Shown in pieces: positions 399-55,408 of a stretch of 64,000 nucleotides of DNA. The position numbers and the translations under genes were made by a program. The stretch is from a bacterium (GTDB lineage Bacteria; Hinthialibacterota; Hinthialibacteria; H5-UNCL2), in assembly GCA_015075175.1 (NCBI GenBank), contig JABTUV010000001.1:744001-808000 (forward strand). The letters run 5' to 3'. The notes below the pieces were generated by a model. It did no database searches. It saw only the letters and a program-made list of their open reading frames with translations, and had not been told where the DNA came from. Every line of letters starts with the position of its first letter. The stretch's first letter is position 1.

Positions 399-415
399 AT
401 GGGACTTATGGGACA
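399..415 (+). repeat. ATGGGAC-type short repeat just after a stop codon
   Basis: ATGGGACTTATGGGACA begins six bases after the stop of the preceding gene. Related copies occur at 28486-28524, 41189-41223 and 55362-55408, each beside the stop of a neighbouring gene and in that gene's sense orientation. Confidence 0.55.
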
Positions 416-424
416 AAAACCAGC

Positions 425-453
425 TTGCACGGGTTGCACGCGCATTTTATGAT
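425..453 (+). promoter_or_regulatory. Putative sigma70-type promoter of the subtilase gene
   Basis: TTGCAC at 425-430 and TATGAT at 448-453 are separated by 17 bases in an otherwise GC-rich intergenic region. Transcription from here would give a leader of about 165 bases before the ATG at 625. This is consensus matching only. Confidence 0.45.
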
Positions 454-624
454 ATTGTCGTTCTGTCGCATGTAAACCCGCGGAGCCACGCAGGCGCGCG
501 GCAGCATGGTTTAGGGGACGCCAGGAGGTGCTTGCTTCGTTTTTTCCGCTTGCATAAATCCAACGTGACAATTCGGGGGCCGGAGGCCCGGGCGCCATGC
601 GCCGGAGCAAGGAGGTTCATTCCA

Positions 625-2905
625 ATGCATCGATTCATCTCGTGGTGGCGGGCGCTCTTATCGACCATGCTGGCCCTGGGCCTGTGCGCGGGCGGCTGGG
701 GGCAGCTGGAGGGCGACCTGTCGAAGGTGGAACCCATGCTGCGCGCGCTGGCCAAGGAGGCGCTGGGCGTTGCGGCGGCGTCGCCCACCAAGGCGGCGGG
801 ACCGACGCTGGCGGCCACGGAGGGCGTCGGGCCGCTCTCCGCCGCGGGCCTCAAGCTTCCCGCCGCGCCCAGCTTCGTACCCCCTGCGCTCCTCTCCAGC
901 GAAGTCCGCGACGGCCGGCTCTATCTGGATACCTTCATCGTGCTGGCGCCCGGAGCCTCCACGGACAACCTTGCCGCCCTTGGCGTCCTCGTCGGCTCCC
1001 GCTCCGGGGATGTCATCACCGCCGACGTGCCTCCCGACCTCCTGGATGAAGTCAACGCGCTTCCCGAGGTCTTGCGCGTGACCGGCTCGCGCTACACCAC
1101 TCCCATGAACGACGCGGCCACCCTGGAGACGGGAGTCCAAACCGTCTGGACCAACCAGAACAACCGCGGCGAGAACGCGCTCGTCGGCGTGATCGATTCC
1201 GGCATTGATTGGCAACACGCCGACTTCAAACACGAATCCGGCCTCTCCCGCATCCAGTACATCTGGGACCAGACGGACGACGCCGGCCCCAATCCGTCCG
1301 GCTACAATTACGGCACCATGTGGACCAAGAGTCAGATTGACAGTACGCCGGGCTCGGTGCGCGAGCGCGACAACGACGAAGGCGCGGGCGGCCACGGCGC
1401 ACGTGACCGGAACCGCCGCGGGCGACGGCTCGGCGACCGGCGGCGGCCAGCCATAACCGCTTCGTCGGCGTCGCCACAAGGCCGACATCTGTTTTGTCAA
1501 AACCAAGTGGACCGAGCAGAGCTGGGCCGACGGTTGCACCTGGCTCTACGACCGCGCGGCCGGCCTGGGCAAGCCGATGGCCATCAACATGTCGCTGGGC
1601 GGGCTCTACGGCCCCCACGACGGCTCCGCTCCCGCCGAACAGTATCTTAGCAACCTCATGGGGCCGGCTGGCCGGGTCTTGTGCATCGCCATCGGCAACT
1701 CCGGCGGCCAGACCATTCACGCCTTTTCCACGCTGGTGCAGGAGACGGGCGACGGCAGCAACCTGGACGATACGCCCGTCATGGTCTTCTGGGCCTATCC
1801 CGTTCAGGGAATGAACATCGGCGTTTCGGTGGTCGAGCTGTGGTATCCGGCGGGTCAGAACGTGCAGTGGCGGGTGGTCTGGCCGATTCAGGGCAGCCGG
1901 CAGGCGGGTCCGTGGCTGGGAACGACTACGAGTACCCAGCAGGCCACCATCGCCAGCGGCCCCTTGCAGAACGTGCAGCTGGAGATGCACTCGGAGATTC
2001 CGTACAACGACGGCCGCAACGTGGTCAACTACGGCTACGTGGTAGTGCAGTCGCCGCAGGCCGGGCCGTTTCTGGGAGGTTATCCCTTTTTCATCCAGCT
2101 CAAAGGCGCGGGCGTGCCGGTGCACGCCTGGCACATCATGCGCGACATGGGCGCCTTCGTCCCCGCGCAGGTCTTCATCGACAGCCAGGTGACGCCGCCC
2201 GCCAAGCTGATCGAGCCGGATGACAACTACACCGCGGCCACGCCGGGAACCGCCGGCAAGGTGATCACCGTCGGCAGCTACGTGACGAAAGTGAATTGGA
2301 CGGATATCGACGGTGCTCTGCAGACGCAGCCCTTCGCCACCCTGGGAGCGATCTCCGGTTTTTCGTCCAAGGGACCGCGACGCGACGGCGCCAGCACGGT
2401 GGAACAGCAGAAGCCGGACGTGACCGCGCCCGGCGAGGCGGTCATCTCCGCGCTTTCCAGCGTGCTCACCCAGCGGCCGCGTTCCGACATCGAGCGTGAC
2501 GGCGTGCACCAGAAGATGCAGGGGACCAGCATGTCTTCTCCCATGGTCACCGGCTTGTGCGCGCTCATGCTTTCCAAGAACTCCAGCCTGACCAACGAGC
2601 AGGTGAAGACCATCCTTCGCACGACGGCGCGCGACGCGGGTCCCGCCGGTTGGGATGGAACCTGGGGAGCGGGCAAGATCGACGCCGTCGCCGCTCTCAA
2701 CGCCGTGCAGGGCGGCCAGCGCACGCCCGGCGACGTCAACAACGACGGCGTCGTGGACAGCCGCGACGCCATCAAAGTCCTCCGCCACATCGGCGGCCAG
2801 GAGACGTTGACCGGCGACGACCTGGCCGCGGCCAATATCAACGGCGACGGCGCGGTCGATAACGCCGACGTGGACGCCATCCTGGGCAAGGCGGTGGGGT
2901 TGTAA
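625..2905 (+). CDS. Exported subtilisin-like (S8) serine protease with C-terminal dockerin, frameshifted
   Basis: The start is ATG 625, with AAGGAGG at 609-615. The N-terminus is a signal peptide (SWWRALLSTMLALGLCAGG). The S8 triad is recognisable: Asp in GVIDSGID (about 1186-1209), His in the HGTHVTGTAAGDG block near 1395, and Ser in GTSMSSP (2522-2542), with the oxyanion segment IAIGNSGG near 1690. A large insert lies between His and Ser. The C-terminus has two calcium-loop repeats, GDVNNDGVVDSRDAIKVL and ANINGDGAVDNADVDAIL, typical of a type I dockerin. The frame breaks near the catalytic His (about 1395-1480), where two to three bases seem missing; the rest of the protein is well preserved, so a consensus error is likely. 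The protease is probably secreted and docked to a cohesin partner; the next gene encodes cohesin-like modules. Confidence 0.8.
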
Positions 2906-2997
2906 GACCATGAACCGACACACCAAACCCAAACGAGAACGGGTGCCACCCCTCTTGACACATTCGGGAACGCGGCGGCGTGTTGGATTGGCTCTGC

Positions 2998-3119
2998 GTA
3001 GCGCCGGCATCTTGCCGGCGCGTAGGGCATCCTGCCCGCACGCCGGTCACTTCCCCAACGGCCAGCGAAGCGTGGGGGCGGGACGCCGCCCACGCAAGCC
3101 GGCGAGACGCCGGCGCTAC
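2998..3119. repeat. Imperfect inverted repeat with GTAGCGCCGGC ends
   Basis: The left end GTAGCGCCGGCATCTTGCC (2998) is nearly the reverse complement of the right end, which closes with GACGCCGGCGCTAC (to 3119). The interior contains further small palindromes. It sits between the protease stop and the next gene and reads through as an open frame, so it could artificially lengthen the downstream N-terminus. Confidence 0.6.
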
Positions 3120-3153
3120 CTTCGGGAAGGCCCGCGCGCGCGCCGACCGTGCC

Positions 3154-6100
3154 GTGCTGCTGCTTATCGTCCTGCTCCTCGGCATGTTGGGTAGTGCGGG
3201 TTGGGCGCAGACCTTCGTGGACCTCACCAACGGCGCGGGCGCCAACGGAACCGCCATCGCCGACGCCAATCCCGATCCCAACATCGGTACCATGCACAAT
3301 GTGCAGTACCGCCTGGCCGTGCCCGCGGGCGCGACCAGCTTGACGGTGACGCGGGTTTTCGCCGCGCCCGTCGTCGATCTCGACCTTTTCTTGAACCTGG
3401 GCAGCCAGGTGACGTCTCAAGACTACGATGCTTCCTCGGAAACCTTTGACTCCATCGAGACGATCACGCTCAATTCGGGAACCACGCCGGCTCTGGGCGT
3501 GGGAACGTATTACTTCGCCATTGCGAACTACACCATGGCCGAGGTTCCCTACACGATCACCGCCACCTATACGGGTGGCGCGACGGGCAAGGCCGATCTG
3601 GTGGTAAATACTTTCAGTTGGACGGGATCGAGCGTGACGGAGGGCAACGCCTTCTTCATCCAGCCCGACATTACCAACGCGGGGCAGACGTCGGCGCCCG
3701 CCAGCCACGTCCGGCTGTTCTTGTCGCTGGACAATGACTATGACTATACCGACGACTACGAAGTGCTGCCGGAGCAGAGCGTGCCGGCGCTGGCGGTACT
3801 GGCGACGGCGCAGGTGCGCTGGGACTTCGCCTTTCCCAACCTGGCCGACACGGCGACGTACAACGTCTGGCCGGTGATCTTCGTCGACAGCCGCAACGAA
3901 GTGGACGAGAGCAACGAGAATAACGTGTTCAAGGCGACCAACCCCATGGTCGTCACGAACGCGGCCGGACCGACCAACACGCCCACGCGCACGCCGACGC
4001 CCACGCCGACGCCCACGCCGACGCCCACGCCCACGCCCACGCAGCCGGGACCCTCGCGGCAGGTCACCATCGGCACGACCTCGGGCGCGGCCGGCTCGGG
4101 CGTTTCGCTGACCGTGACGGTGAGTGATACGCAGGACGTGGCGGCGTTGGAACTGGACCTGTCGTTCAACGGGTCGCTGGTAACGGCGGGGCAGGCGACG
4201 CTGGGAGCGGCGGCGGGCAATTTCCGCGTGCGCTCCAACCCGGAGTCGGGCCGCCTGCGTGTGGCCATGGCGCGCGGTACGGGTCTGTCCGCCGGCAGCG
4301 GCGTCATGCTGAATCTGCCCTTCACCATCAGCGGCGGAGCGGGCGCGGGAACCAATGTCCCGATTACCGTGTCATCGGTGAAGCTCTATTCGATCAGCGC
4401 CGCCCTCAACGCTTCCGGCGTGAACGGGCAGATCAGCGTGACCGGCGGCGGCCCCACGAGCACCTTCACGCCCACACCCACGCCAACGCCCACCAACACC
4501 CAACCCGGCCCTTCGCGGCAGGTCGCCGTGGGCACGACCTCGGGCGCGGCGGGCTCGGGCGTATCCGTCTCCGTGACCGTGGACAACCTCCTGGACGTGG
4601 CGGCGCTGGAGCTGGACCTGTCGTTCAATGGTTCGCTGCTCTCGCCGTCGCAGGCGACGCTGGGCGGCTCGGCGAGCAATTTCCGCCTGCGCTCGAACCC
4701 GGAGGGCGGGCGCCTGCGCGTGGCCATGGCGCGCGCTACCGGCCTCTCCGCCGGAGGGGGAACCATGCTCACGCTGCCGTTCACCATCAGCGGCGGCGCC
4801 GGCGCCGGAAGCAATATTCCCATCACCGTGTCGGCGGTGAATCTCCATTCCATCAGCGGTTCGATTGCGGCCAGCGGCGTGGCCGGTCAGGTGAGCGTCT
4901 CGGGCGGAGCCGCGACCAACACCTTTACGCCCACGCCGACGGCGACGCCTACGCCCACTCCCACCCAGCCGGGCGGCAATACCCCTACCCCCACGCCGAC
5001 CACGCAACCGGGAACCTACTACACCGACATCAATAACGACGGCGTGGTGGATGAACGGGACCTCATGCTGCTAGCTCTGGATTGGCGGCGGGCCGTGCCC
5101 ACGCGCACCAGCGGCGAGCCGGGCGGCGGCCTCTCGACCCTGGTCGGGCGCGTGCTGGACCCCGAGACCGCCCAGGGGCTTGTGGGGGCGCAGGTGCAAC
5201 TCTACGACGTGGAGGGACGCTTGCTTTCGTCCACGCCGACGACCGACGGCGGTCGCTACGGCTTCAGCGACGTTCTGGCGGGTTACTACCGCATTCGCGC
5301 TTCAGCCGCGGACCATATCGACGCGGATCTCTACCAGTTGGTGGATGCCGAGACGGAGACGGCGCGCGATCTGTATCTTGTTCCCGGCGGTCCGGGGACG
5401 GGCAGCATCTCGGGCAAGGTCGTGAGCGCGGTGAACGGGCGGGGTGGAGGCGCCAAAGTGGGTTGCGGGCGGGACTGGGGGCGCTCCTGGGAGCGCCGGA
5501 TCGGACGCTCACCGCCTTGGGCAACGGAACCTATTCGAGTACCGGCGTGCCTGCCGGATGTTACACGGCGCGCGCCACCGCGTCCGGTTACGACGCGGGC
5601 GTCGGGACGGTCCTCGTGTATCCGTCCGTGTCCAAGACTCAGCCCGACCTGCCGATTTCTCAATCCCTGGGGCCGGGAGAGTTGCGCGTCACGCTGACGT
5701 GGAACGCCGCGCCCGGCGATCTGGACCTGCACGCGACCGGCCCCTCGGGCGGCGGACGCTTTCACGTGTACTACAATAATCGCGGCAGCATCCTGGAGGC
5801 GCCGTTCTGTCGCTTGGACTTGGACGACGCGGATGGTTTTGGACCGGAGACGGTTACGGTCAAGCAGCGGAGCGCGGGCGTCTATCGTTTCTCGGTGCAC
5901 GATTACACCAACCGCGACGATGGCGGCAGCGTGGTGCTGTCGCATGTGTCAGGCGCGGTCGTGAAGGTGTTCGACCATCTGGGCCTGTTGGCGACGTTCC
6001 AGGTTCCGACCGGCCGGACGGGAACCATCTGGCGGGTGTTCGAGCTGGACGGCGCGACGGGGCGATCACGCCGGTGGATACGTTTCACGTGGGCGCGCGC

Positions 6101-6172
6101 GACGATGCGGGCGCGTTCAAGGCGGGCGGCGAAGAATGGCCGGGGCCGGTCGGGGTTCCCGGCAAGGAGTGA
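3154..6172 (+). CDS. Large exported multidomain surface protein with two cohesin-like modules and a DUF2135-like C-terminus, frameshifted
   Basis: GTG 3154 is proposed as the start because it opens a signal peptide (VLLLIVLLLGMLGSAGWAQ); the open frame upstream is only repeat DNA. Modules in order are: a pre-peptidase C-terminal-like beta domain (about 3210-3585), a CARDB-like domain (about 3595-3940), a Thr-Pro linker, a cohesin-like module (about 4048-4440), a second linker, a second cohesin-like module (about 4513-4908), a linker, half a dockerin (DINNDGVVDERDLMLLALDW), two carboxypeptidase-regulatory-like beta domains, and a C-terminal part with LTWNAAPGDLDLHATGPSGG as in YfaP/DUF2135 proteins. 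Frameshifts occur near 5440-5490 and 6060; in the last frame the protein ends VGVPGKE at TGA 6170-6172. The protein is probably a cell-surface or secreted scaffold that binds dockerin proteins. Its true ligand is unknown. Confidence 0.75.
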
Positions 6173-6245
6173 CGGCGGGAATGATGGAGCCGGGAGGCTT
6201 GACTTCCCCGCCGCGGGCGGCTATAAATCCTAACGACACGCCGGT

Positions 6246-6318
<73 letters not shown>

Positions 6319-6452
6319 CTTTCCAAGTCCTGCCGATTTCGTGGCTCTGGTTTATCGTTATCACGACGCCCAAGTCGCCCAGCGCCTTGCCCCGAGCCTC
6401 GCCCCGAGTAGGCCGAAGGTCCTATCGAGGGGCGCTGCGCCTGCGCCGTAGT

Positions 6453-6537: not shown

Positions 6538-6571
6538 CGCCGACCGACGCCCGACCGTGGGCGGTGTGTGG

Positions 6572-8419
6572 TTACAGAGAAAGAACAAACTCAGCCAGGT
6601 CGTCCACCTCCTGCTCCGTCAACTTGGAGGTGGAGCCGTGCTTGTCCGAGCCGTTGAAGGTGGTTAACACCTCCTTGATGGTGGCCGCGCGGCCGTCGTG
6701 CAGGTAGGGGGCGGTGCGCCAGACTTCGACCAGTGTGGGCGTATCGAGCGGCTTGCCCTGATCGATTCCGGCGCCGGTTCCCACGTCGTAGGCCGCAAGG
6801 TCGGTGTAAAGCGGTCCCGGATGGCAGCGGGCGCAACCGGCCTCTGCGAACAGCGCCTGCCCGCGCGTGGCGGCGGGACTGAGCCGGCCGTCGATCCGAT
6901 ACGGGCTGGGGACGGGTGCCAGCGAGCGCAGATAGGTGTCCATCGCCGAGGCGTCGCGTTCTTCGGGAACGGCGAACTGAATGTGTAAGAGTCCCGCCCG
7001 CACCGCCGTCTCCGCCCGCTCGCGCACCCCGCGGCTCATGGCCGGGGGGGTTTGATGCGCCATCAGCAGGCTCTTCGTGTTTTTGGGATTGCCCAAGCCG
7101 TCGTTGCCGAGGTCCCAGTTGAGGGCGTCCACGCGCGCCTCTCCCGGATGGCAACTGGCGCAACTCTGCCAATGTTGAAAGCACTGCCGCGCGTCGTGAA
7201 ACAGCATCTCGCCGCGGCGTGCGGGCGAGAGCGTCGGTTCGGGACCCAGGGGAATCGAGCTGGTCCGCCCGCCGTCCGCGCCTCCCAGGTCTACTACCGC
7301 CAGGCTGTCGCTGAAGTACTGCGCGGCGAAAAGGCGGTCTCCGACCGCGACGACCTCGCGCGGACCCACGCCGGGCAGGGGTACCCGCGTACGCAAGCCG
7401 GCGAGGAACGCGAGATCGTCGGGCACGTCCGCGGCCGTGAGCGGGCCTCCCCCCTCTTCGGGAGGCGCGTTGTAGAGCACGGCGCCCGCCGCCAGCCGGT
7501 CCAGTTTCTCATGCAGCCTCGTCCGATCGATCACGCTCAACTCGTGCGTGCCCGCGTGCGCCACGTACAGCCGGCGCCCGTCCGCGCTGCAGGCGACTCC
7601 CCACGGATTGGCGGCGCCCAGGTCCGGCTCGTCCAGGAGGACCGTGTTCACTAGCGCGCGGTCGGCGACGCGGATGACGGAGACGGCGCTGGTGTTCATC
7701 CAGCCGCGCTCCAGCTGCGTGGTAGGCAGCTGGTAGCGCGCCAGCGTGTGGGTCGCGTAAATGTAGGCGCCGTCGGGCGAAGCCGCGATACCCAGGACAG
7801 AGGTACTGCCGTTGGGAAGGGCGATCTCCCCGATGGCCTCGGCGGCGCGGGCGTCGATCACGGAGACGACGGCCGCAGACGACGCGCCGTTGGCCGGACC
7901 GGCGGGAAGAAGATTGGCTACGAAGAGGAGGTCGCTCGGCGGCGCTCGCACCGCCGCCACCGGCTCGCGCGAGACCGCAATGCGTTTCACTTCCCGGCCC
8001 GAGGCCAGGTCGATCACGGAGAGGTCGTGGTTGAAGCGGTTGCAGACAAAGAGCGTCGCGCCGTCGCGGCTCTGGACCATCGCGCCGGGCGTGTGGCCGG
8101 CCGGCAGCGTCGAGAGCACGCGGCCGCGCCGCGGGTCCACGACCCACACGCAGCCCAGCGGGGCGGCGTCGGCGACATAGAGGCGCGAGTCGTCCGCGGA
8201 CAGGGCCAGCCCGCCCGGGACGCCCTCAAGCGCGATCCTCTTGACCACCCGCCAAGCCTCCAGATCGAACACCGCCACGCGCCGGGCGGTCGTCTCCGCG
8301 ATATAAAGCCTCCGGCCCGCGTGATCGGCCGCCAGCGCCTGCGGGGAGAGCGGCTCCCCGCCGGTGGCGGATCGCCCCCACGCGAGAAGCAACAGGCTCA
8401 GGAAAACCCAGCGAGACAT
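6572..8419 (-). CDS. Exported YVTN beta-propeller protein with dihaem cytochrome c domain
   Basis: The protein is 615 residues with a signal peptide (MSRWVFLSLLLLAWG). Residues about 25-375 are repeated blades of the YVTN/lactonase type (RRLYIAETTARRVAVFDL, DSRLYVADA, GRRLYVAHAGTHELSVID). The C-terminal part has two haem motifs, CASCH near residue 418 and CARCH near 527, within a cytochrome c peroxidase/MauG-like arrangement (TPTLVEVWRTAPYLHDGR, and the closing LAEFVLSL). It probably acts in the periplasm as a redox enzyme or electron carrier; the substrate is unknown. The next gene upstream on the same strand also encodes a multihaem protein, and the ccm operon in this window supplies the haem attachment machinery. 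The start codon is preceded directly by a purine-rich AAGATT-type repeat rather than by a normal ribosome binding site. Confidence 0.85.
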   Translation of the reverse strand: MSRWVFLSLLLLAWGRSATGGEPLSPQALAADHAGRRLYIAETTARRVAVFDLEAWRVVKRIALEGVPGGLALSADDSRLYVADAAPLGCVWVVDPRRGRVLSTLPAGHTPGAMVQSRDGATLFVCNRFNHDLSVIDLASGREVKRIAVSREPVAAVRAPPSDLLFVANLLPAGPANGASSAAVVSVIDARAAEAIGEIALPNGSTSVLGIAASPDGAYIYATHTLARYQLPTTQLERGWMNTSAVSVIRVADRALVNTVLLDEPDLGAANPWGVACSADGRRLYVAHAGTHELSVIDRTRLHEKLDRLAAGAVLYNAPPEEGGGPLTAADVPDDLAFLAGLRTRVPLPGVGPREVVAVGDRLFAAQYFSDSLAVVDLGGADGGRTSSIPLGPEPTLSPARRGEMLFHDARQCFQHWQSCASCHPGEARVDALNWDLGNDGLGNPKNTKSLLMAHQTPPAMSRGVRERAETAVRAGLLHIQFAVPEERDASAMDTYLRSLAPVPSPYRIDGRLSPAATRGQALFAEAGCARCHPGPLYTDLAAYDVGTGAGIDQGKPLDTPTLVEVWRTAPYLHDGRAATIKEVLTTFNGSDKHGSTSKLTEQEVDDLAEFVLSL

Positions 8420-8495
8420 CTTATCTTACTCTTAATCCTAATCTTAATCTTGCTCTTAATCGATTACGAGCAAGAGCACGAGTACGATTACGAAC
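8420..8495 (-). repeat. AAGATT-type degenerate hexamer repeat upstream of the YVTN cytochrome gene
   Basis: On the minus strand the sequence leading into the ATG at 8419 reads as repeated AAGATT/AAGAGC/AAGAGT units (for example AAGATTAAGATTAGG). It also contains a small inverted repeat around ATCGAT. The same purine-rich polarity is seen upstream of the starts at 21853 and 38455. Confidence 0.65.
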
Positions 8496-11049: not shown

Positions 11050-11700
11050 CCCTTCCCGCCGCGTGGGGTGCAGCCGCAAAAAACTACGGCTTCTGATCCC
11101 TTGCCCGTGGACTTGCCGCTTGGTGGGCCATCGCAAGCCCTGCGTCGCTGTCATTTCGACCGAAGGGAGAAATCTGATCCGGCGTTTGTCGATCGTGCGA
11201 CACGCGATGTCGGATTCTCCTTCGGTCGAAATGACGTGGTCTGCGGGTGGAAAACTGAATCTGCACCCGCCGCGTGGGGTGCAGCCGCAAAAAACTACGG
11301 CTTCTGATCCCTTGCCCGTGGACTTGCCGCTTGGTGGGCCATCGCAAGCCCTGCGTCGCTGTCATTTCGACCGAAGGGAGAAATCTGATCCGGCGTTTGT
11401 CGATCGTGCGACACGCGATGTCGGATTCTCCTTCCGGTCGAAATGACGAAACTGGTCTGCGGGTGGAAAAACTGAATCTGCACCCGCCGCGTGGGGTGCA
11501 GCCGCAAAACTACGGCTTCGATCCTTGCCGTGGATTGCCGCTTGGTGGGCCATCGCAAGCCCTGCGTCGCTGTCATTTCGACCGAAGGAGAATCGATCCG
11601 GGTTTGTCGATCGTGCGACGCGCGGATGTGATTTCTCCCTTCGGTCGAAATGACGAGCTTGGTCTGCGGGTGAAGAAACTGAATCTGTAGCCGCCGCGCG
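11050..11700. repeat. Three tandem copies of a roughly 214-base unit containing the TCATTTCGACCGAAGG hairpin
   Basis: The gap 11045-11741 has no gene. Units start at CCGCCGCG around 11056, 11267 and 11484, with a partial fourth start near 11688, giving periods of 211 and 217. Each unit has a segment beginning GTGGGGTGCAGCCGCAAAA, then the arm TCATTTCGACCGAAGGGAG and, about 60 bases on, the complementary arm. Copy three has several small deletions. Open frames here in all directions are products of the repeat. Confidence 0.85.
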
Positions 11701-13680: not shown

Positions 13681-13823
13681 ACTTTGGGACTCCCCTTGCG
13701 TCCGACCTTTTAGCGCCTTCTTTAACGTGGCGGCAAGCCGGTCGGCTCAAATCACCACGATGCAAGTATCTTACTAAGAGCGCCGCTGAAAGTCAAGCGC
13801 AAATCGCGCGGGGATGGTGCGGC

Positions 13824-19364: not shown

Positions 19365-19376
19365 GCGCCTTCCGAC

Positions 19377-19585
19377 GGAGTACAAACTTCGGTTGCGCTC
19401 ATGCAGGCTGAAGCCTGTACTCCTGAACCCGGAGTACAAACTTCAGTTTGCGCTCATGCAGGCTGAAGCCTGTACTCCTGAACCGGAGTACAAACTTCAG
19501 TTTGCGCTCATGCAGGCTGAAGCCGTACTCCTGAACCGGTACAAACTTCAGTTTGCGCTCATCGCAGGCTGAAGCCTGTACTCCC
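19377..19585. repeat. Four tandem copies of a 54-base hairpin unit
   Basis: Units start at about 19377, 19431, 19485 and 19538. Each runs from GGAGTACA to TGTACTCC, which are complementary, and contains two inner hairpins, AAAC-TTCA-GTTT and CAGGCT-GA-AGCCTG, giving a three-way-junction fold. Copies three and four have one- or two-base deletions. The array begins 13 bases upstream of the glnE start. CAGGCTGAAGCCTG also occurs once near 6522. Confidence 0.85.
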
Positions 19586-20900: not shown

Positions 20901-21032
20901 CGGTCATTTCGACCGAACCAACCTGTCATTTCGAGCGAACCAACCTGTCATTTCGACCGAAGGGAGAAACCTTTCCCCCGCCGCACTCCGCCGCCCGAGG
21001 GGCGAGATTTCTCCCTTCGGTCGAAATGACAG
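20901..21032. repeat. TCATTTCGACCGAAGG hairpin with left-hand arm array
   Basis: Two 22-base arm copies (GTCATTTCGACCGAACCAAC and a variant) precede the full arm GTCATTTCGACCGAAGGGAG; the complementary arm ends near 21030. It lies in the divergent promoter region between the TPR gene and ccmE. Elsewhere in 20793-21296 I see only GC-rich intergenic DNA and a TACAAT at 21271-21276 that could be a -10 box for ccmE. Confidence 0.8.
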
Positions 21033-21795: not shown

Positions 21796-21851
21796 TTGAG
21801 ACTAAAATCAAGAGCGAGAGCAAGATTAAGATTAAGAACAAGATTAAGAAC
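21796..21851 (+). repeat. AAGATT-type degenerate repeat immediately upstream of ccmF
   Basis: AAGATTAAGATTAAGAACAA and related units run to the base before CC-ATG of ccmF. No GGAGG is present, so this purine-rich tract occupies the ribosome binding position. Its polarity matches the repeats before the starts at 8419 and 38455. Confidence 0.65.
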
Positions 21852-28433: not shown

Positions 28434-28485
28434 AACGCGCCCCTCGTGGTGGGCAAAATCCACCCTACGCCTCCGCACCCCCAAT

Positions 28486-28524
28486 GGTCCCATAGGTCCC
28501 ATAGGTCCTATACGTCCCATTCTT
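28486..28524 (-). repeat. ATGGGACC-type short repeat after the symporter stop
   Basis: On the minus strand, a few bases after the stop at 28529, the sequence reads ATGGGACGTATAGGACCTAT and on with two more ATGGGACC units. This is the longest copy of the stop-proximal family. Confidence 0.65.
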
Positions 28525-28528
28525 CCCG

Positions 28529-30343
28529 CTACTTCCCAATCTGCATCACGCCCCACGCGGTCAGAATCATCAAGCCGACCGCGGCCCAGGCGAGCACGAA
28601 TCCGACCAGGTCCTCGCGATAACGGAACCAGAAGTTGTGCCAGCGCTCGGCGGTCAACCAGCCGGGCAGATCCAGGAGGATCAGCTCTTCGCCGCGATCG
28701 CGCGCCAGAGGCTTTTCCCCGCTCTCCGGCAGCGCCTCCTCGTCGGTGGAACGCATCTGGTTGTCGAAGAAGGCGTCGATGCGTTGTTTGTCCTCCGGCG
28801 GCGTGAGCAAACTGACCAGCACCATCAGCGGGAAGCTGACGAGCATGGCGCCGCCGAACGGCCCCGGCTGCCACTTGTATACCAGCTTCCAGGTTCCCGT
28901 GTCCCAAAACGCGCCGAAGTTGCCGGCGGAGAGCGACGCCCACATGTCCTTCCAGGCGGGCCAAAGCGCGGTGTAGCTTTCGCTGCCGTCCAGCGGTTTG
29001 CAACTCATTAGGTAATTAAGCCCCCAATAAACGCCGAAGGCCGACAGCGTGGCCGCCCAGGCGCCCCAGCGGTTGGTCCGCCGCCACAGCACCCCGCCTA
29101 GGAACATCACGCCCATCAGCGCCGCGATGGTCTCGGTGAAAAGAAAGGCGTGTAGCACCTCCTTCACGTAGATGCCGAAAAGCACGCCCAACAGCGTCAG
29201 GGTCAGGCCCGAGACGCGCCCCGTCCAGAGCAGCTGGCGGTCGCTGGCATCCGCCTTGATGTAGCGTTGGAAGAGATTGCGGGTGAAGAGCGCGCCCGTG
29301 TTGACCATGAAGTTGGAGCAGGTGGACATGTTGGCGGCCAACACGCAGGCCACGATCAATCCTGTCAATCCCGGCGCCAACAACACCCGGCAGGCGTAAC
29401 CGAAAGCGTCCTCCGGATCGGCCAGCGGGCCTTGGCCGGTCTGAATCAGCAGCGCGGCCACGATCAACCCGGTCAACGCCCAGCCGATGGTACAAAAACG
29501 CTTGACCATCGCTCCATAAGTCTGGCCCACGCGCCCCGCCCGCTCCGTGCGTCCCGTCGCGCACATGGTCAGCACGTGCGGCTGCGCTACAATTCCCACC
29601 AGCCCGTTGATGGCCAGCATGGCGATGGTGAACCAGCCCAGCCCGCTCACGTCGCTGTACAGCCGGAAGTACTCCACCTCCTGGCCCTCCAGGCTGGCGC
29701 GCATCCCGGCAAATCCTCCGACTACCGACAAACCGATGGGAATCAGGAGAAACGACAACAGGATGATCAGGAACGACTGCACGAAGTCGGTGTAGGCGGA
29801 TGCCAAGAGGCCCCCGAAGAAACTGTACAGGATAAAAGCGACCGTCATCGCCACCACCACGCCGTCGGGCGAGATGGCGTGTCCGGTAGCGACCGAGATC
29901 ATCTTGCCCGCGCCCTTCAGCATGGCCCCCTGGTTGAAGACGAAGTAGGCGATGGCGAACAGGGTGTACACGAACGCCAGCAGCCGCCCGTAACGGTCCT
30001 CGATGATTTCCCCGATGGTGGTGCGTTCGCTTCTTCGGTACCAGGGCGCCAAGAGCCAGTAGAAGGGCGTGATCAGCATGTTCTTCCACTGGTACCAGAT
30101 GGTGGCGAAACCCAGGCTGTAGGTGGCTCCCACCTGGGCGACCGGCTGCTCGGCGTGGGTACCGGTGCCAAACGCCTGACCCACCATGATCCACCAGCCC
30201 AACCTGCGCTCGCCCAGGAAGTAACCGCCCGAGCTCTTGATGCGGCGCGCGATCCAAAGTCCAAAGGCGGTGATCCCGACGAAGTAAGCGATGAGAACAA
30301 CGCCATCCAACGTGGTGAATCCCGCTTCACCGGTTTGCGGCAT
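28529..30343 (-). CDS. Sodium/solute symporter (SSS family)
   Basis: The product is a polytopic inner-membrane protein of about 604 residues. The start is ATG 30343 (MPQTGEAGFTTLDGVVLIAY), chosen because AGGAGG lies about eight bases upstream; the frame extends nine codons further. Family features include GYFLGERRLGWWIMVGQAFG, the sodium-site helix SFFGGLLASAYTDFVQSFLI, and GLIVACVLAANMSTCSNFMV. About 13 helices are expected, with a long C-terminal soluble loop (EDKQRIDAFFDNQMRSTDEE) and a last helix. SSS proteins import sugars, amino acids, nucleosides or carboxylates with sodium; the substrate cannot be read from the sequence. It is monocistronic in appearance, downstream of ddl but 338 bases away. 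Confidence 0.88.
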   Translation of the reverse strand: MPQTGEAGFTTLDGVVLIAYFVGITAFGLWIARRIKSSGGYFLGERRLGWWIMVGQAFGTGTHAEQPVAQVGATYSLGFATIWYQWKNMLITPFYWLLAPWYRRSERTTIGEIIEDRYGRLLAFVYTLFAIAYFVFNQGAMLKGAGKMISVATGHAISPDGVVVAMTVAFILYSFFGGLLASAYTDFVQSFLIILLSFLLIPIGLSVVGGFAGMRASLEGQEVEYFRLYSDVSGLGWFTIAMLAINGLVGIVAQPHVLTMCATGRTERAGRVGQTYGAMVKRFCTIGWALTGLIVAALLIQTGQGPLADPEDAFGYACRVLLAPGLTGLIVACVLAANMSTCSNFMVNTGALFTRNLFQRYIKADASDRQLLWTGRVSGLTLTLLGVLFGIYVKEVLHAFLFTETIAALMGVMFLGGVLWRRTNRWGAWAATLSAFGVYWGLNYLMSCKPLDGSESYTALWPAWKDMWASLSAGNFGAFWDTGTWKLVYKWQPGPFGGAMLVSFPLMVLVSLLTPPEDKQRIDAFFDNQMRSTDEEALPESGEKPLARDRGEELILLDLPGWLTAERWHNFWFRYREDLVGFVLAWAAVGLMILTAWGVMQIGK

Positions 30344-38470: not shown

Positions 38471-38575
38471 CGATTGCGATTCTTAATCTTAATCTTAATC
38501 TTAATCTTAATCTTGCTCTTACTCTTGCTCTTAATCGTAATCTTACTCTTGCTCGTACTCCTACTCGTATTCGGA
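38471..38575 (-). repeat. AAGATT-type repeat array upstream of the uridine kinase gene
   Basis: On the minus strand the array reads AAGATTAAGATTAAGATTAA several times plus AAGAGC, AAGAGT and AAGATTACG variants, about 30-120 bases before the ATG at 38455. Plus-strand frames through it are low-complexity Leu/Ile artefacts. Confidence 0.8.
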
Positions 38576-41188: not shown

Positions 41189-41223
41189 CTCATAGACCCC
41201 ATGGGTCCCATACGTCCCATTCT
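41189..41223 (-). repeat. ATGGGACC-type short repeat directly after the pilT stop
   Basis: Immediately downstream of the TAA at 41224-41226 (minus strand), the sequence is AGAATGGGACGTATGGGACC and on to CATGGGGTCTATGAG. Confidence 0.65.
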
Positions 41224-42393
41224 TTAATACGACCCCCGCGCCTCGGGGCGTTTTCCCGCGGGCGGAAGCGGCATGGGATTGTCGGTCGGCGGAATCGGCT
41301 TAGGGATGGTCTCCAGTATGGCGCTGGAGGAGACGCGGCGGGCCACCTCGTCGTAGCTGATGAGGCCGGCCGCGTAAAGCTCGCGCAGCCGGGCGTCCAT
41401 GGTGATCATACCTTCCTTGGTGCCCGTCTCCATCAGCGAGCGCGTCTGGTGCATTCGCCCCTCGCGGATGTGGGCGGCGACGCCATGCGTGCGCACCAGA
41501 ACCTCACAGGCGAGCACCCGCCCCTTGCCGTCCGCGCGCGGAATCAGCTGCTGCGCAAACACGCCCAACAAAACGAACGCCAACTGCACGCGAATCTGGT
41601 TTTGCTGGTGGGCGGGAAAGGTGTCCACGATGCGGTCGATGGCCTGGATCGCGTCGTTGGTGTGGAGCGTGGCGATCACGAGATGTCCCGTCTCCGCCGC
41701 CGTCAGCGCCGCCTGGATGGTCTCCTGGTCGCGCATTTCGCCGACCAGGATCACGTCCGGGTCCTGGCGCAGGACGTACTTGAGCGCGTTGGCGAACGAC
41801 AGCGTGTCGGCGTAAACCTCGCGCTGGTCGATGATGGCGCGCTTGTTGGTGTGAACGAACTCGATGGGATCCTCGACCGTGACGATTTGGCAGCGGCGGG
41901 TCTGGTTGATCAGGTCGATCATCGACGCCATGGTGGTCGTTTTGCCCGAGCCGGTGGGTCCGGTGAGCAGGATCAGCCCGTTGGGGCGCAGGGTGAGCGT
42001 CTTGAGAACGGGCGGCACGCCCAGCTGTTCCATGCTCGGGATGACGCGAGGAATCAGCCGGAACGCCGCCGACACGGCGCCCTTCTGATAATAGATGTTG
42101 GCGCGGAAGCGCAGGTCGCCGGTGACCGAGAGCGAGAAGTCCAGTTCGCGCTTGCGCTCGAACTGCTCCTGTTGGGTTTCGTTGAGAAGACTCCAGACCA
42201 AGCGGCGCGTGTCGGACGGAGCGAGCACGCGTCGCACCGCGGGGTAGAGGTCGCCGTTGAGGCGCACAATAGGCGGCGCCCCGGCGGTGAGGAGCAGGTC
42301 GCTGGCATCCATCCGCGCCGCATATTCGAACAGCGCCTTGATGTCCAGCGCCTCGTCCGGCGAAAGCATCGGCTCCGGGCGCGGCTCGCTCAT
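41224..42393 (-). CDS. pilT: PilT-family twitching motility ATPase
   Basis: This hexameric ATPase retracts type IV pili. The 389-residue product starts at ATG 42393 (MSEPRPEPMLSPDEALDIKA), overlapping the stop of the preceding gene by ATGA, with AAGGA nine bases upstream. Motifs are Walker A GPTGSGKTTT, Asp box TVEDPIEFVH, Walker B DPDVILVGEMRDQET, His box ETGHLVIATLHTND and the C-terminal IDRIVDTFPAHQQNQIR. The C-terminal tail is proline-rich (PKPIPPTDNPMPLPPAG) and longer than in PilT of Pseudomonas. It is paired with a second PilT-like ATPase upstream. The pilin-like genes of this window are at 47.8 and 51.3 kb. Confidence 0.9.
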   Translation of the reverse strand: MSEPRPEPMLSPDEALDIKALFEYAARMDASDLLLTAGAPPIVRLNGDLYPAVRRVLAPSDTRRLVWSLLNETQQEQFERKRELDFSLSVTGDLRFRANIYYQKGAVSAAFRLIPRVIPSMEQLGVPPVLKTLTLRPNGLILLTGPTGSGKTTTMASMIDLINQTRRCQIVTVEDPIEFVHTNKRAIIDQREVYADTLSFANALKYVLRQDPDVILVGEMRDQETIQAALTAAETGHLVIATLHTNDAIQAIDRIVDTFPAHQQNQIRVQLAFVLLGVFAQQLIPRADGKGRVLACEVLVRTHGVAAHIREGRMHQTRSLMETGTKEGMITMDARLRELYAAGLISYDEVARRVSSSAILETIPKPIPPTDNPMPLPPAGKRPEARGSY

Positions 42394-48527: not shown

Positions 48528-48590
48528 GGTTGAGTATAACCATGATAATGAGACTCTTCCAGGCGTTTCTTGCCGACGGACGCGGCGTGC

Positions 48591-48765
48591 TGTCATTTCG
48601 ACCGAAGGGAGGAATCTCTCCTAGGGTCCTGCGGCCGTTGAGAAGGGGCATAAGATTTCTCCCTTCGGTCGAAATGACAGTTTGATCGGAATGTCAGTTT
48701 GGTCGGAATGACAGTTTGATCGGAATGACAGTTTGGTCGAAATGACAGTTCGGTCGAAGAGACAG
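48591..48765. repeat. TCATTTCGACCGAAGG hairpin with right-hand 17-base tandem array
   Basis: CTGTCATTTCGACCGAAGGG starts at 48590 and its complement ends at 48680. Five 17-base units (TTTGATCGGAATGTCAG, TTTGGTCGGAATGACAG and variants) follow to 48765, each a copy of the outer arm. The remaining intergenic sequence to 49052 holds a TTGACT at 48903-48908 with only a weak -10 after it. Confidence 0.85.
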
Positions 48766-49052
48766 TCGTATGCCCTTTGGGACGAAATGACAACCGGACC
48801 AGGGGCCGCCTAGACGGGTTCGTGACTGCGACTCGGGCGCAACAACCAGACGAGACCGTACATCTTGTGGTCTATGTTCAGCAGGTCCGCAACATTTTTG
48901 GTTTGACTCTCACTCCGACTTTGCTACCGTGAAATCCCGGGGCGAATCCGGGGATCACGCACCCATCCAACCTTACCCGAATACGCGCGGAGCCTCGGAC
49001 CCGGACCCACGGTAGTGCTCCCGATCCAACTCTGCGGTCAAAGGTGTTTGCC

Positions 49053-50678: not shown

Positions 50679-50688
50679 GCGGGAGACC

Positions 50689-51237: not shown

Positions 51238-51270
51238 AAGATTGTGCGGAGGGGCGGAAGAGCGTGATTT

Positions 51271-51298
51271 TTGACTTGACTTCTTTGTTAAATATAAT
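51271..51298 (+). promoter_or_regulatory. Strong sigma70-type promoter of the second pilin-like gene
   Basis: TTGACT at 51271-51276 and a perfect TATAAT at 51293-51298, spacer 16, stand in an AT-rich stretch that is unusual for this sequence. The pilin ATG is at 51340, so the leader would be about 35 bases. Confidence 0.75.
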
Positions 51299-51339
51299 CT
51301 ATTTTTACGCGACCGACTTTGCCCTTCGAGGTATGGATC

Positions 51340-51990
51340 ATGAAGCGCGCCTTCACGCTGATCGAACTTCTGATCGTTGTTGCCATTATTGGCATTCTTG
51401 CTGCAATTGCCGTTCCGAACTTCCTTCATGCCCAGATTCGTGCCAAGATCGCCCGCTCGCTGGCCGACATGCGCAGCATCGGCGTCGCGGTCGAGTGTTT
51501 CCGCGCCGATCACGGTGTGGACCTCCTGGACGTCTGGGATGACGACGACAACGCCGAATGCGAGAAGTACATCGCCATGGGCCTGGGTTACACCGTGCCC
51601 TCCGGCGGCAGTGCGGGTCGCACCCACTGGATGGTCTACAGTCTGATTACCACGCCCGTGGCCTACATCCAGACCGTGCCCCCCGACCGGATGTTCCCGG
51701 AGATCGCCGGCGTTTTCGTGCCCAACCCATACATCTATGTGGACCAAGACGGACACCGCGGCGGCTCCATCAACGACCATAACATCGGCGCCCTGCAGTT
51801 CACCATCGCGCCGACGCGGGGTCTCCTGCCGCTTCAGAACGGCGAGTGGGCCATCCTGGGCGTGGGGCCGGACACCATCATCGAGGAGCTTGCCAACTAC
51901 CAGCGGCGGGGGGTTCCCTACGATCCGTCCAACGGGCTGAAGAGCAAGGGCGACTTGACGGTGCGTTCCTCCGGCGCGGCAAGCATTTGA
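51340..51990 (+). CDS. Type IV pilin-like (pseudopilin) protein
   Basis: The 216-residue product starts at ATG 51340 (MKRAFTLIELLIVVAIIGIL); a TTG start upstream is in frame but has no support. KRA|FTLIELL is the class III signal, and the helix continues AAIAVPNFLHAQIRAKIARS, almost identical to the first pilin's. The globular part has VDLLDVWDDDDNAECEKYIA and ends YDPSNGLKSKGDLTVRSSG, related to the end of the product at 47850-48527. It probably forms part of a pseudopilus or pilus. Its own promoter is the best in the window, and the upstream PAS gene ends 100 bases before it. Confidence 0.87.
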   Translation: MKRAFTLIELLIVVAIIGILAAIAVPNFLHAQIRAKIARSLADMRSIGVAVECFRADHGVDLLDVWDDDDNAECEKYIAMGLGYTVPSGGSAGRTHWMVYSLITTPVAYIQTVPPDRMFPEIAGVFVPNPYIYVDQDGHRGGSINDHNIGALQFTIAPTRGLLPLQNGEWAILGVGPDTIIEELANYQRRGVPYDPSNGLKSKGDLTVRSSGAASI

Positions 51991-52300
51991 GCTTCGAGCC
52001 GCCGGGCGGATTCCGTCGTCATCTTGCTCCCGCTCCCGCCCTTGTTTTGTACGTCATAATCTCACGCATACTATTGTGTCCATTACTGGTGCGGCATGGA
52101 AACCCGGCGGTTGCGCAGCGTGCTGCGCCTGCGCCCAACTTCCCAAGCGAGGTATTTCCCGGCGGCCGCAGCAACTCGCAATCCTTATCAGACTCCGCAC
52201 GTCTCGGCGGGGGCGGGGCAACGGTCCACGAAGGCTCGTCGTGGGGCGGGGAAGGCAAGGATTCGCAGACGATTGAGAGTAGGACTGAGAAGGCGAGACC
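51991..52300. other. Intergenic region between convergent pilin and PPK2 genes
   Basis: I see no gene here. It contains GTTGCGCAGCGTGCTGCGC near 52112-52130, also found near 6453, and GC-rich sequence with no clear terminator. Short open frames in this stretch have no recognisable content. Confidence 0.5.
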
Positions 52301-53146
52301 TCACTCGACCACAATCCGCTCCAAACCCTCCACCGGCGCGGGAAATCTCGGGTCGAGCCGCTCCAGAGTCTCGCGCATGATCATACTCACGGCATAATTG
52401 CGGAACCACTTGTTGTCGGCGGGAATCACGTACCAGGGCGCATGGGGAAGGGAGGTCTTTTCCAACATCGCCTGGTAGGCTTCCTGATAGGCGTCAAAGC
52501 ACTTGCGCTCGACCAGGTCGGCCTCGCTGAACTTCCAGTTCTTGTGCGGCCTCTCCAGCCGCGCCTGCATCCGCCGCTTCTGCTCGTCCTTGGAAATGAT
52601 CAGAAGGAATTTCAAAATAACCGTGCCGGAATCGACCAGGAGGCGCTCGAAGTTGTTGATGTGGGCGTAGCGCGCCTTCCACACCGACTTGGGTGCGAGT
52701 TCATGCACGCGCACCACCAGTACGTCCTCGTAATGGCTGCGATTGAAGCAGACGATCATGCCGTGGCCGGGAGTGTGCATGTGGATGCGCCAGAGGAAGT
52801 CGTGGGCCAGCTCGCGCGGGGTGGGTTTCTTGTAGGAAAAGACCAGCACGCCCTGCGGATTGAGCGGTCCCAACACGTGGCGGATGACGCCGTCCTTGCC
52901 GCCCGCGTCCATCGCCTGCAGGACGACGAGGACGCCGTGTTTGCACTCGGCGTAGAGCCGATACTGGAGTTTTTGCAGGCAGGCGATGTTCTCCCGGAAG
53001 GCGGTTTCGGCCGCCTGCCGGTCCAGGCGCCGTCCGTCGGGACCGCGCGTCTCGGCCGGGTCGAGCCGCGACAGCTGGAAGCGGTCGGCCTTGACCCGCA
53101 ACCACTTGGGATAGAGGTCCTGGATGGCATCGCTCTTTTTCGACAT
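52301..53146 (-). CDS. ppk2: Polyphosphate kinase 2 family protein
   Basis: PPK2 enzymes phosphorylate nucleotides with polyphosphate. The 281-residue product starts at ATG 53146 (MSKKSDAIQDLYPKWLRVKA), nine bases after GGAGG. Motifs are the P-loop-like VLQAMDAGGKDGVIRHVLGP, CFNRSHYEDVLVVRV (Walker B region) and RRMQARLERPHKNWKFSEAD of the lid. These features and the length suit the single-domain PPK2 forms that phosphorylate AMP and ADP. The acceptor specificity cannot be judged. It is single; a repeat hairpin follows its 5' side. Confidence 0.9.
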   Translation of the reverse strand: MSKKSDAIQDLYPKWLRVKADRFQLSRLDPAETRGPDGRRLDRQAAETAFRENIACLQKLQYRLYAECKHGVLVVLQAMDAGGKDGVIRHVLGPLNPQGVLVFSYKKPTPRELAHDFLWRIHMHTPGHGMIVCFNRSHYEDVLVVRVHELAPKSVWKARYAHINNFERLLVDSGTVILKFLLIISKDEQKRRMQARLERPHKNWKFSEADLVERKCFDAYQEAYQAMLEKTSLPHAPWYVIPADNKWFRNYAVSMIMRETLERLDPRFPAPVEGLERIVVE

Positions 53147-53258
53147 CGGAAAGCCTCCAGAGTGAAACGTACCGCGGGGGCGCAGGAGTACCAACTTGCC
53201 GCTCCAACCCGCGCGCAACCGCTCCGGCCAGTCGTCCCGCTTTCGGGGGGAAGAGAGC

Positions 53259-53344
53259 TGTCATTTCGACCGAAGGGAGAAATCTTTCCCGCCGCCGCGA
53301 GTTGAGCGCGAAACAGAAGATTTCTCCCTTCGGTCGAAATGACA
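53259..53344. repeat. TCATTTCGACCGAAGG hairpin upstream of ppk2
   Basis: GCTGTCATTTCGACCGAAGG and its exact complement ending near 53344 enclose about 37 bases. It lies between ppk2 and the GHMP kinase gene, both on the minus strand. Confidence 0.85.
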
Positions 53345-53423
53345 GCTACTCCGCCAAGTGCAAGAAAACGCCTCTGCACTTTGCCGCCGGCATCTGTACC
53401 AGCGCGCGCGGCACGCTGCGCAA

Positions 53424-54422
53424 CTACAGGATGGTGGGCCGGATCACGCGGCAATCCAGCTTGGCTAACTCCAGCGTCAGGCGCCGGAAGGCGGCCTCGT
53501 CGGGATAGGTCCCGACGATGGCGCCGCCGCTGCCGGCGAACTTGGCCGAGGCGCCGGAGGCCCGCCCCGTTTCCACCAGCTCCAGATTGTCGCGCGAAAT
53601 CGGCACGATGCGCCGCCGCAAATCGAAATTGGCGTTCATGATCTCCGCCAGCTCCTCCCGCCGTCCCGCGAGCAGCGCCTCGCGGAAGCGGTCGGTCAGC
53701 GCGGCGAAGCCGCGCATGGCCTCGTGCACCTCGGGATCGCCCCGCTCCCAGCGCCGCCGCAGATCGTTGTGCACGATCTCGGAGACTTCGGCCAGCTTCA
53801 CCTGGTAGGCCAGGTACAGCGGCGGCAGGAGCGCGGGGTCCAGCGGCTGATAGTCGCCGTATCCGTCGCGCTCCAGCTTCTCGCGCGCAAAGTCCATGTA
53901 GACAAGCCCCTCGTACACCTGACAGACGCGGTCCTGAAGGCCGCCGGAGATGCCCAGCTCCTCGCGCTCGGTAGCCAGAATCCAGTTGGGCAGGATCTCG
54001 CGCGGGATGGACACGTCATAGAAACGCATGAGGGCGCGAAAAGCCGCGGTGATGATGGCGGAGCTGCCCGCCAGTCCCACCTGGCGCGGCACGTCGGTCT
54101 CGTACCGCACCGAGAAGTTGCGCCGCGGCAGGTTCACACCCGTCTCGACGCAGTAGTCGTAGAACTTCTTGATCGACGCCTTGACCAGGCGCAACCCGCC
54201 GTAGTAGCCGTTGCGCCGCACGTCGTCGGCCAGTTCCTCCAGCGAGTCGAAGCGCACGTGATCCTCGCCGCTGGGCAGAATCTCCTGCGTGGGCCACTCG
54301 TAGAGCACGATGCGCGCAGAGAAGTCGCGCACGATCACGGCGATGGTCTTGCCGAAATAGCCGTCGGAGGGATTGCCGACCAGGCCCGCGCGGGCGTGGG
54401 CGACGGTTCTAACCATCCTCAT
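53424..54422 (-). CDS. GHMP kinase, glucuronokinase-like
   Basis: The 332-residue product starts at ATG 54422, nine bases after GAGG, and overlaps the end of galU by 14 bases. GHMP features are AHARAGLVGNPSDGYFGKTI at the N-terminus, the phosphate-binding loop PRQVGLAGSSAIITAAFRAL, and ASGASAKFAGSGGAIVGTYP near the C-terminus. The N-terminal NPSDGYFGKTI and the general plan resemble plant and bacterial glucuronokinase, which phosphorylates glucuronic acid to glucuronate 1-phosphate. The coupled galU-like uridylyltransferase would then give UDP-glucuronate or UDP-glucose for glycan synthesis. Other sugar kinases of this superfamily remain possible. Confidence 0.75.
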   Translation of the reverse strand: MRMVRTVAHARAGLVGNPSDGYFGKTIAVIVRDFSARIVLYEWPTQEILPSGEDHVRFDSLEELADDVRRNGYYGGLRLVKASIKKFYDYCVETGVNLPRRNFSVRYETDVPRQVGLAGSSAIITAAFRALMRFYDVSIPREILPNWILATEREELGISGGLQDRVCQVYEGLVYMDFAREKLERDGYGDYQPLDPALLPPLYLAYQVKLAEVSEIVHNDLRRRWERGDPEVHEAMRGFAALTDRFREALLAGRREELAEIMNANFDLRRRIVPISRDNLELVETGRASGASAKFAGSGGAIVGTYPDEAAFRRLTLELAKLDCRVIRPTIL

Positions 54423-55305
54423 GCAGCAGTCCTCGCACGTAATCGCGCAAGCCCGGCCCGTGCACCGGGTCGAACAGCGCGAAATCCATGAAGGCGCGGA
54501 AGTAGCTGTCGAAGTTGCCGATGTCGTAGCGCCGCTCGCCCGGCGGCAGCTTCATGCCCAGGACTCTTTCTCCTCCGCGGATCAGCAGCCGGATGGCGTC
54601 CGTCAACTGGATTTCGCCGCCCTTGCCGGGCCGCGTCTCGCGCACCGCTGCGAAGACGTGGTGGGAAAAGACGTAGCGGGCGGCGATGGCCAGCCGGCTG
54701 GGCGCCTCGGCGGGCGAGGGCTTCTCGATCAAGTCACGAATCACAAAGCTCTCGCCGTCGCTGGGCGCCGTCTCCGGTTCGGCGATGCCGTAGAAGCGCA
54801 CGTCCTCGGGCGGGACCTCCTCGAAGGCCACCACCGCCGCGCAGGTCTCGCTCATGAACACTTCGCACATGCGCGCGATCATGGTGCTGTTGGCGTGGCG
54901 CCCCAGGATGGTGTCGCCCAGCGCGACCACGAACGGCTGCTCGCCGGCGAACTCCTCCGCGTGCAGGACCGCGTCGCCCAGGCCCAGTTGCATCTTCTGG
55001 CGCGTGTAGAAGAAGCGCAGGTTGGCGCGCTCGAACTCCAGCTCCGACAAAAGGTCCTCCTTGGCCGTCTCGCGCAGGTAGCGGATGAGCACGGGATCCA
55101 CGTCGAAGTGGTTCTCGATCGAGTACTTGCTGGGGCCGGTGATAAAGAGAATGCGGGAGAGGCCGTTGCGCTCCAGCTCCTCGACCACGTATTGCACAAC
55201 GGGACGCTTGCCCACGGGCAGCATCTCCTTGGGCTGGCTCTTGGTGGCGGGCAAGAGGCGGGTCCCCAGTCCGGCCACGGGAACCACAGCGTTCTTGATG
55301 GTCAT
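54409..55305 (-). CDS. galU: UTP--glucose-1-phosphate uridylyltransferase
   Basis: The 298-residue product has the GalU signature: AVVPVAGLGTRLLPATKSQP with the nucleotide-binding GxGTR, KEMLPVGKRPVVQYVVEELE, FVVALGDTILG, and GEIQLTDAIRLLI. It makes UDP-glucose from UTP and glucose 1-phosphate, and some relatives accept glucuronate 1-phosphate. GGAGG lies seven bases before ATG 55305. Overlap with the downstream GHMP kinase gene by 14 bases shows translational coupling and suggests one pathway of sugar activation. Confidence 0.92.
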   Translation of the reverse strand: MTIKNAVVPVAGLGTRLLPATKSQPKEMLPVGKRPVVQYVVEELERNGLSRILFITGPSKYSIENHFDVDPVLIRYLRETAKEDLLSELEFERANLRFFYTRQKMQLGLGDAVLHAEEFAGEQPFVVALGDTILGRHANSTMIARMCEVFMSETCAAVVAFEEVPPEDVRFYGIAEPETAPSDGESFVIRDLIEKPSPAEAPSRLAIAARYVFSHHVFAAVRETRPGKGGEIQLTDAIRLLIRGGERVLGMKLPPGERRYDIGNFDSYFRAFMDFALFDPVHGPGLRDYVRGLLHEDG

Positions 55306-55361
55306 GGCAATCCTCCGAATTACCGGGCAGTGTGATGAAGGGAAGGCGGACTGTCAATGAC

Positions 55362-55408
55362 ACATAGGTCTCATGGGACCCATAGGTCCCGTGGATCCTA
55401 CAGGTGTC
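55362..55408 (-). repeat. ATGGGACC-type short repeat after the vWA-gene stop
   Basis: On the minus strand, a few bases after the stop at 55412, the sequence includes GGGACCTATGGGTCCCATGA and GACCTATGTG. It is the fourth copy of the stop-proximal family. Confidence 0.6.

Follow-up and report, generated by a model that had tools for sequence, protein, structure and literature searches.

Tandem nonamer arrays 3' of stop codons in bacteria of several phyla and in phages: candidate components of a repetitive hairpin element at 3' ends

The 64,000-nucleotide stretch analyzed here (henceforth the window; positions 744,001 to 808,000 of the forward strand of contig JABTUV010000001.1, assembly GCA_015075175.1, from a bacterium of the Hinthialibacterota) carries four short arrays of a tandem nonamer, consisting of the heptamer ATGGGAC and two variable bases, shortly 3' of stop codons. 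Comparable arrays recur throughout this genome, where they are strongly concentrated just beyond stop codons, as well as in genomes of several other phyla and in phages, and a part of them is arranged in inverted pairs that can fold into hairpins. Hairpins 3' of stops are known from the repetitive extragenic palindromic (REP) elements of proteobacteria, and we consider it an evenly balanced proposition that the arrays form the arms of a REP-like 3'-end hairpin element built from tandem nonamers.

Position and orientation of the arrays

A sequence-only reading of the window had claimed four copies of the repeat, each beside the stop codon of a gene and in that gene's sense direction. All four were recovered, reading (A/C)ATGGGAC in the direction of the preceding gene and lying 1-21 nt 3' of its stop (4/4 in sense orientation; Table 1), and the count of exactly four is borne out by a pattern scan of the window, which found no further array of two or more units. 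Lone ATGGGAC heptamers occur at three other places in it (10311 minus, 17188 plus and 47657 plus). Tandem Repeats Finder reports the 28486 copy only, as four units with a period of nine. The copy at 55362 is a sense array, but it lacks the uniform polarity ascribed to it, being the mixed string GGGACC TAT GGGTCC CAT GAGACC. The gene ending at 393 was not called by the codon-usage gene caller, its frame being broken upstream: within window positions 1-393 the frame changes upstream of an intact C-terminus, the last 47 residues of which end in GCNAVLNPGSIVGRGSVIYSGVSFRGICPAGSIVKLRQAQEVVGRQ at the stop. To judge by its sequence this C-terminus reads like that of a hexapeptide-repeat transferase, and this resemblance makes the stop at 393 credible; the broken gene is either an assembly error or a pseudogene. 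A search against Rfam gave no match at the window arrays, nor at three other loci with arrays.

The assembly of the window genome comprises 4.98 Mb (84% complete), and the window belongs to its contig C1. Exact GGGACNNATGGGAC sites number 142 in the whole genome as against 2 for the reversed-pattern control, and 1.2 Mb of C1 hold 43 arrays as against 2 in the reversed sequence. The orientation of the arrays and their distance to stops, which the earlier reading had proposed to examine, were tabulated in a sample of 1.85 Mb, composed of 1.2 Mb of C1 taken without selection and about 0.65 Mb of stretches picked for holding a match, with genes called by a purpose-made codon-usage caller whose stops are more reliable than its starts. 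Here 93 of 104 arrays are intergenic; of these, 33 in sense and 9 in antisense orientation are found no farther than 20 nt 3' of a stop. The corresponding null values are 4.6 for sense (maximum 13) and 4.8 for antisense arrays (maximum 14) in 2000 random placements, drawn uniformly from the same intergenic space in a model that leaves selection against promoters outside. As at most three of the 33 sense arrays are the window's own, this result is independent of the original finding. The placement of the array at a stop in sense orientation is accordingly a strong bias but not an absolute rule, antisense copies also occurring and some of them standing alone. About 2% of the C1 genes have a sense array 3' of their stop. 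A second family of short intergenic repeats in this genome, GTCATTTCGACC with a variable spacer and in both polarities, forms 94 intergenic clusters in 1.2 Mb and is not enriched at stops: 8/94 of its clusters lie within 25 nt of a stop as against 19/39 for the nonamer arrays (Fisher p = 7e-7).

The repeat unit and its inverted pairing

The trained model of the unit is A T R G G (A) C C/G N with a period of nine, repeated 2-6 times. The A that gives the unit its polarity is uniform within nearly all arrays, and about 40% of the units in the window genome have A as the third base of the heptamer. The heptamer is conserved, while the two bases following it vary between units of one array and across phyla; replication slippage, which the sequence-only reading had offered as one origin, fits this poorly, since the doublets differ from unit to unit while the heptamer is kept.

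In the window genome neighboring arrays of opposite polarity face each other in 16 cases (-> <-) and stand back-to-back in one, which suggests an inverted repeat as the basic unit, i.e. a hairpin 3' of the stop. Antisense arrays peak at 40-70 nt 3' of stops, which is beyond a sense array, and most of those at 40-80 nt are compatible with being the downstream partner in a facing pair. Such facing pairs give long stems when folded, and a complementary downstream arm scoring above 95% of control flanks accompanies 14 of the 42 stop-proximal sense arrays.

Several observations weigh against reading the arrays as arms of a 3'-end hairpin. Roughly two in three stop-proximal arrays of the window genome, including all four of the window, are solo arrays without a partner arm, and three of these four do not surpass shuffled sequences in folding by two standard deviations. 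Both in the window genome and in a Planctomicrobium genome (G066, see below) the arms fit their own partners no better than swapped ones, implying that fine pairing is not generally maintained. Furthermore, 6 of the 39 intergenic clusters of C1 lie in divergent regions, so that a role at 3' ends is impossible for these six.

The hairpin in Acidobacterium and Planctomicrobium

An Acidobacterium genome (G068) displays the same anatomy as the window genome in a cleaner form, with near-perfect stems and the order stop, a few nucleotides, sense array, loop of 5-35 nt, antisense array. Within 25 nt of stops it has 25 sense and 2 antisense arrays, the second arm lies at 40-80 nt, and 21/21 pairs are facing. 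In this genome the duplex formed by an array with its own partner is more stable than that with swapped partners (-52.4 versus -45.9 kcal/mol; 1 of 2000 permutations). The Planctomicrobium genome G066 has a hairpin at the same place with the opposite polarity: 16 of the 18 stop-adjacent arrays are antisense, and 18 of 20 pairs are back-to-back. Given that its near relative G153 has mostly facing pairs among the matches listed, polarity changes within a clade. The reversal in Planctomicrobium thus implies that the sense polarity is a trait of particular lineages and that the stem 3' of the stop is the common feature. What stands of the RNA-level role proposed in the sequence-only reading is therefore that the excess 3' of stops and the sense bias point to a role at the RNA 3' end; fixed polarity does not hold as the defining feature.

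Distribution, turnover and phages

A scan of one genome per species (84,980 species) matched at least 116 stretches. Among the matches listed, the positive genomes belong to the Planctomycetota, Acidobacteriota, Verrucomicrobiota, a Lentisphaerota-type group, the Hydrogenedentota and others; the number of sites in one genome reaches 429, and control matches number 0. Some matches in public genomes, for example in a number of phage contigs and of bacterial loci, proved to be coding repeats and were excluded by their gene context. The distribution is patchy, hundreds of sites being present in few genomes of several phyla and none in most of their relatives: any site at all is found in 3 of 61 relatives of G068 and in 9 of 49 relatives of G066, and the classmates of the window genome have 0 to 15 sites each. 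In CTP synthase these classmates are 65-68% identical to the window genome, and the Hydrogenedentota, Sumerlaeota, Planctomycetota and other genomes tested are 43-60% identical to it.

Comparison of orthologous loci reveals both retention and loss or gain of the element. Downstream of one gene it is kept in G066 and in two further genomes, G061 and G154 (protein identity 79%, and 71% over a fragment), with conserved heptamers and diverged free doublets. Inspection shows two stem pairs altered on both sides, AAG/CTT to CAG/CTG in the innermost and GCG/CGC to CCG/CGG in the next, and the elements of all three genomes fold strongly (z -8.5 to -13.3). At another gene the orthologues in G061 and G154, 91-92% identical, are without the element, and in G154 an unrelated, almost perfect hairpin occupies its slot (Table 1). 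That one slot can be filled by different hairpin families suggests that selection acts on structure. Beyond the hairpin in G066 there is also a degenerate tandem repeat (AGGACCAATGACCAA...; L367, ~3456-3510), which its relatives do not have.

Viral contigs with genes for tape-measure, portal, minor-head and tail-fibre-assembly proteins likewise contain arrays, which are situated between successive co-directional genes, directly 3' of stops and sometimes about 12 nt ahead of the next start. This location inside structural operons argues for an intercistronic RNA role over full termination, and phages might provide a route for the transfer of the arrays.

Proposed function

What the element would do to RNA, how it would spread and whether a factor binds it we infer throughout from its position, orientation bias, inverted pairing, hairpin potential, occurrence in several phyla and in phages, and turnover. 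One arm would comprise 2-6 tandem nonamers (ATRGGAC followed by a free doublet) and begin 0-30 nt 3' of the stop; to this the full form would add a second, inverted array after a loop of about 5-35 nt, yielding a stem of 25-45 bp in the transcript directly 3' of the coding sequence. This stem may act on the mRNA 3' end by blocking 3'-to-5' decay, and it may also shape the end of translation or the read-through between neighboring genes. A nonamer-copying process would gain, lose and lengthen the copies. A more far-reaching proposal, to which we give only tentative credence, is that ATGGGAC-N2 is the sequence code proper to a 3'-end element shared across phyla. Phages would in part carry this element from one bacterium to another, it would occupy an exchangeable hairpin position at stop codons, and a common enzyme or binding protein would write or read the nonamer.

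The arrays represent a quite different design, that of tandem nonamers, at a place known for REP hairpins, and they occur across several phyla and within structural operons of phages. If functional, they would constitute a general 3'-end device in groups for which little work exists on mRNA decay and termination. The switch in polarity and the swap of hairpin families at an orthologous gene offer a handle on the relative parts played by structure and sequence.

Comparison with known repeat systems

REP elements and bacterial interspersed mosaic elements (BIMEs) are GTAG- and CGTC-tagged palindromes, of which the GTAG type is tied to RAYT transposases (PMC3733652). They are high-copy extragenic hairpins, a significant part of them 1-20 nt from a stop (PMC3733652, PMC12306157), and in this resemble the nonamer arrays where these are paired; they are likewise scattered over phyla, and roles in mRNA stability, termination and translation are attributed to them. 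The palindromic or stem-loop form is present in both G068 and G066, and in the window genome a second arm accompanies 14 of 42 stop-proximal arrays; an excess within about 20 nt 3' of stops, as in REP elements, is found in these two genomes and in the window genome. The nonamer arrays differ in that their arms are tandem nonamers with free doublets, the number of units being variable, many are solo, and their polarity is dependent on the lineage; at their borders the base composition gave no consensus for a GTAG or CGTC tag, only a purine-rich stretch. According to work cited in PMC12306157, a REP within 15 nt of a stop reduces translation in E. coli, and the function proposed above is modelled on this effect as that source describes it.

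The repetition of one and the same heptamer in phyla that are not related is best paralleled by the TAACTGA repeat of Beggiatoaceae, cyanobacteria and Bacteroidetes, which lies mostly upstream of starts and for which no RNA structure is predicted (MacGregor 2015, PMC4679880). It too is a heptamer occurring 2-6 times in intergenic regions, with an orientation relative to genes that is fixed in the richest genome. In contrast, the present arrays have a different heptamer, a period of nine, a position 3' of stops and frequent inverted pairs. For a pair orientation that depends on lineage, the best precedent is supplied by the DNA uptake sequences that act in pairs as terminators in Neisseria and Pasteurellaceae (PMC1852404). 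These are short motifs in inverted pairs 3' of genes with a preferred orientation differing between groups; unlike them, the nonamer arrays are tandem, their lone heptamers are not enriched and a U-tract is missing. None of the papers in the collection searched contains the repeat sequence.

Alternative explanations

Among the alternatives, we regard as possible, though distinctly less probable than a hairpin element acting on RNA, a small inverted repeat of mobile or selfish nature, propagated by a transposase or another copying enzyme, which would accumulate at intergenic 3' ends as the least harmful sites and owe its polarity to the insertion mechanism. The very patchy occurrence among relatives in spite of up to 429 sites in a genome, the presence and absence between closely similar orthologues and the copies in phages all fit such an origin, as does the called stop codon lying inside the array in 13 of 33 stop-proximal sense arrays, which would be expected after insertion at gene ends. 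However, beyond the heptamer there is no common insert sequence, the free bases and number of units being variable; Y1 transposases (PF01797; 2 matches in the window genome) occur no more often in positive than in negative genomes; and the other repeats of the window genome do not cluster at stops. Rather unlikely, in our estimate, is an RNA tract to which a sequence-specific protein binds, each subunit taking one heptamer and the two bases in between serving as spacer; the hairpin would then be secondary. The conservation of the heptamer beside variable spacer bases, within arrays and across phyla, is what such a tract would show; the sense arrays of the window genome are mostly solo, and the ten bases 5' of the arrays are purine-rich (68% versus 49%). 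Against this, the Planctomicrobium RNA just 3' of the stop reads GUCCCAU rather than AUGGGAC, the heptamer tolerates A at its third position as noted above, and no candidate protein was identified.

The facing pairs, the position 3' of stops and the 21 of 93 intergenic arrays in convergent regions would also suit intrinsic transcription terminators comparable to the paired uptake sequences of Neisseria. This is improbable, as no U-tract follows (T fraction 0.24 in G068 and 0.15 in G066 in the 15 nt 3' of the stem), arrays lie between the tail and head genes of phage operons at the spacing to the next start given above, and solo arms lack a strong stem. Chance or coding repeats, such as a collagen-like Gly-X-Y reading of GGACNNATG, explain some of the public-genome matches, but for the window genome this explanation is refuted by the intergenic location of nearly all arrays and the excess over the reversed pattern, and it hardly merits further consideration. 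A DNA-uptake sequence was rejected, lone ATGGGAC not being over-represented (126 found versus 130 expected); a G-quadruplex with GGG every 9 nt was rejected as the general cause on account of the frequent A at the third position and the reversed polarity in Planctomicrobium; and marking of the replication strand was rejected, both polarities being present in each third of C1, with genes about equally split.

Other features of the window

Table 1. Coordinates of the arrays, their upstream genes and related features (window positions unless a locus is named)
Feature	Position	Strand	Remark
Solo sense array, 2 units (ATGGGACTT ATGGGAC)	398..415	+	5 nt 3' of stop 391-393
Solo sense array, ~4 units (ATGGGACGT ATAGGACCT ATGGGACCT ATGGGACC)	28483..28527	-	convergent intergenic region
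Solo sense array, 3-4 units	41189..41223	-	adjoins stop of PilT-family ATPase gene
Sense array, mixed polarity, self-folding (z -2.7)	55362..55408	-	3' of stop of 745-aa gene
Sodium:solute symporter gene	28529..30343	-	upstream of second array
PilT/PilU-family ATPase gene	41224..42393	-	upstream of third array
Gene of 745 aa	55412..57649	-	upstream of fourth array; high coding score
GTCATTTCGACC repeat family	11055-11698, 20903-20961, 48667-48766, 60774-60883, 60940-61046
Almost perfect inverted repeat AATACAAGCTCGAAGCGCCAGCGAGTGCAT 3' of stop	L373 1355-1497	minus	slot holds ATGGGAC hairpin in near relative
Nonamer arrays between consecutive genes of phage structural operons	L302, L330, L341, L345

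The genes upstream of the second, third and fourth arrays have good support as genes; no family was found for the 745-aa protein upstream of the fourth. A third repeat family of the window consists of hexamer arrays, TCTTAN / AAGANN, between genes (8418-8461, 21810-21851 and 38481-38569), and a 54-bp repeat present four times at 19376-19584 contains GTACAAACTTCAGTTTG-type palindromes and has a strong fold. The window also includes a SAM-alpha riboswitch (13690-13768 minus, 70.5 bits), a family described from alphaproteobacteria.
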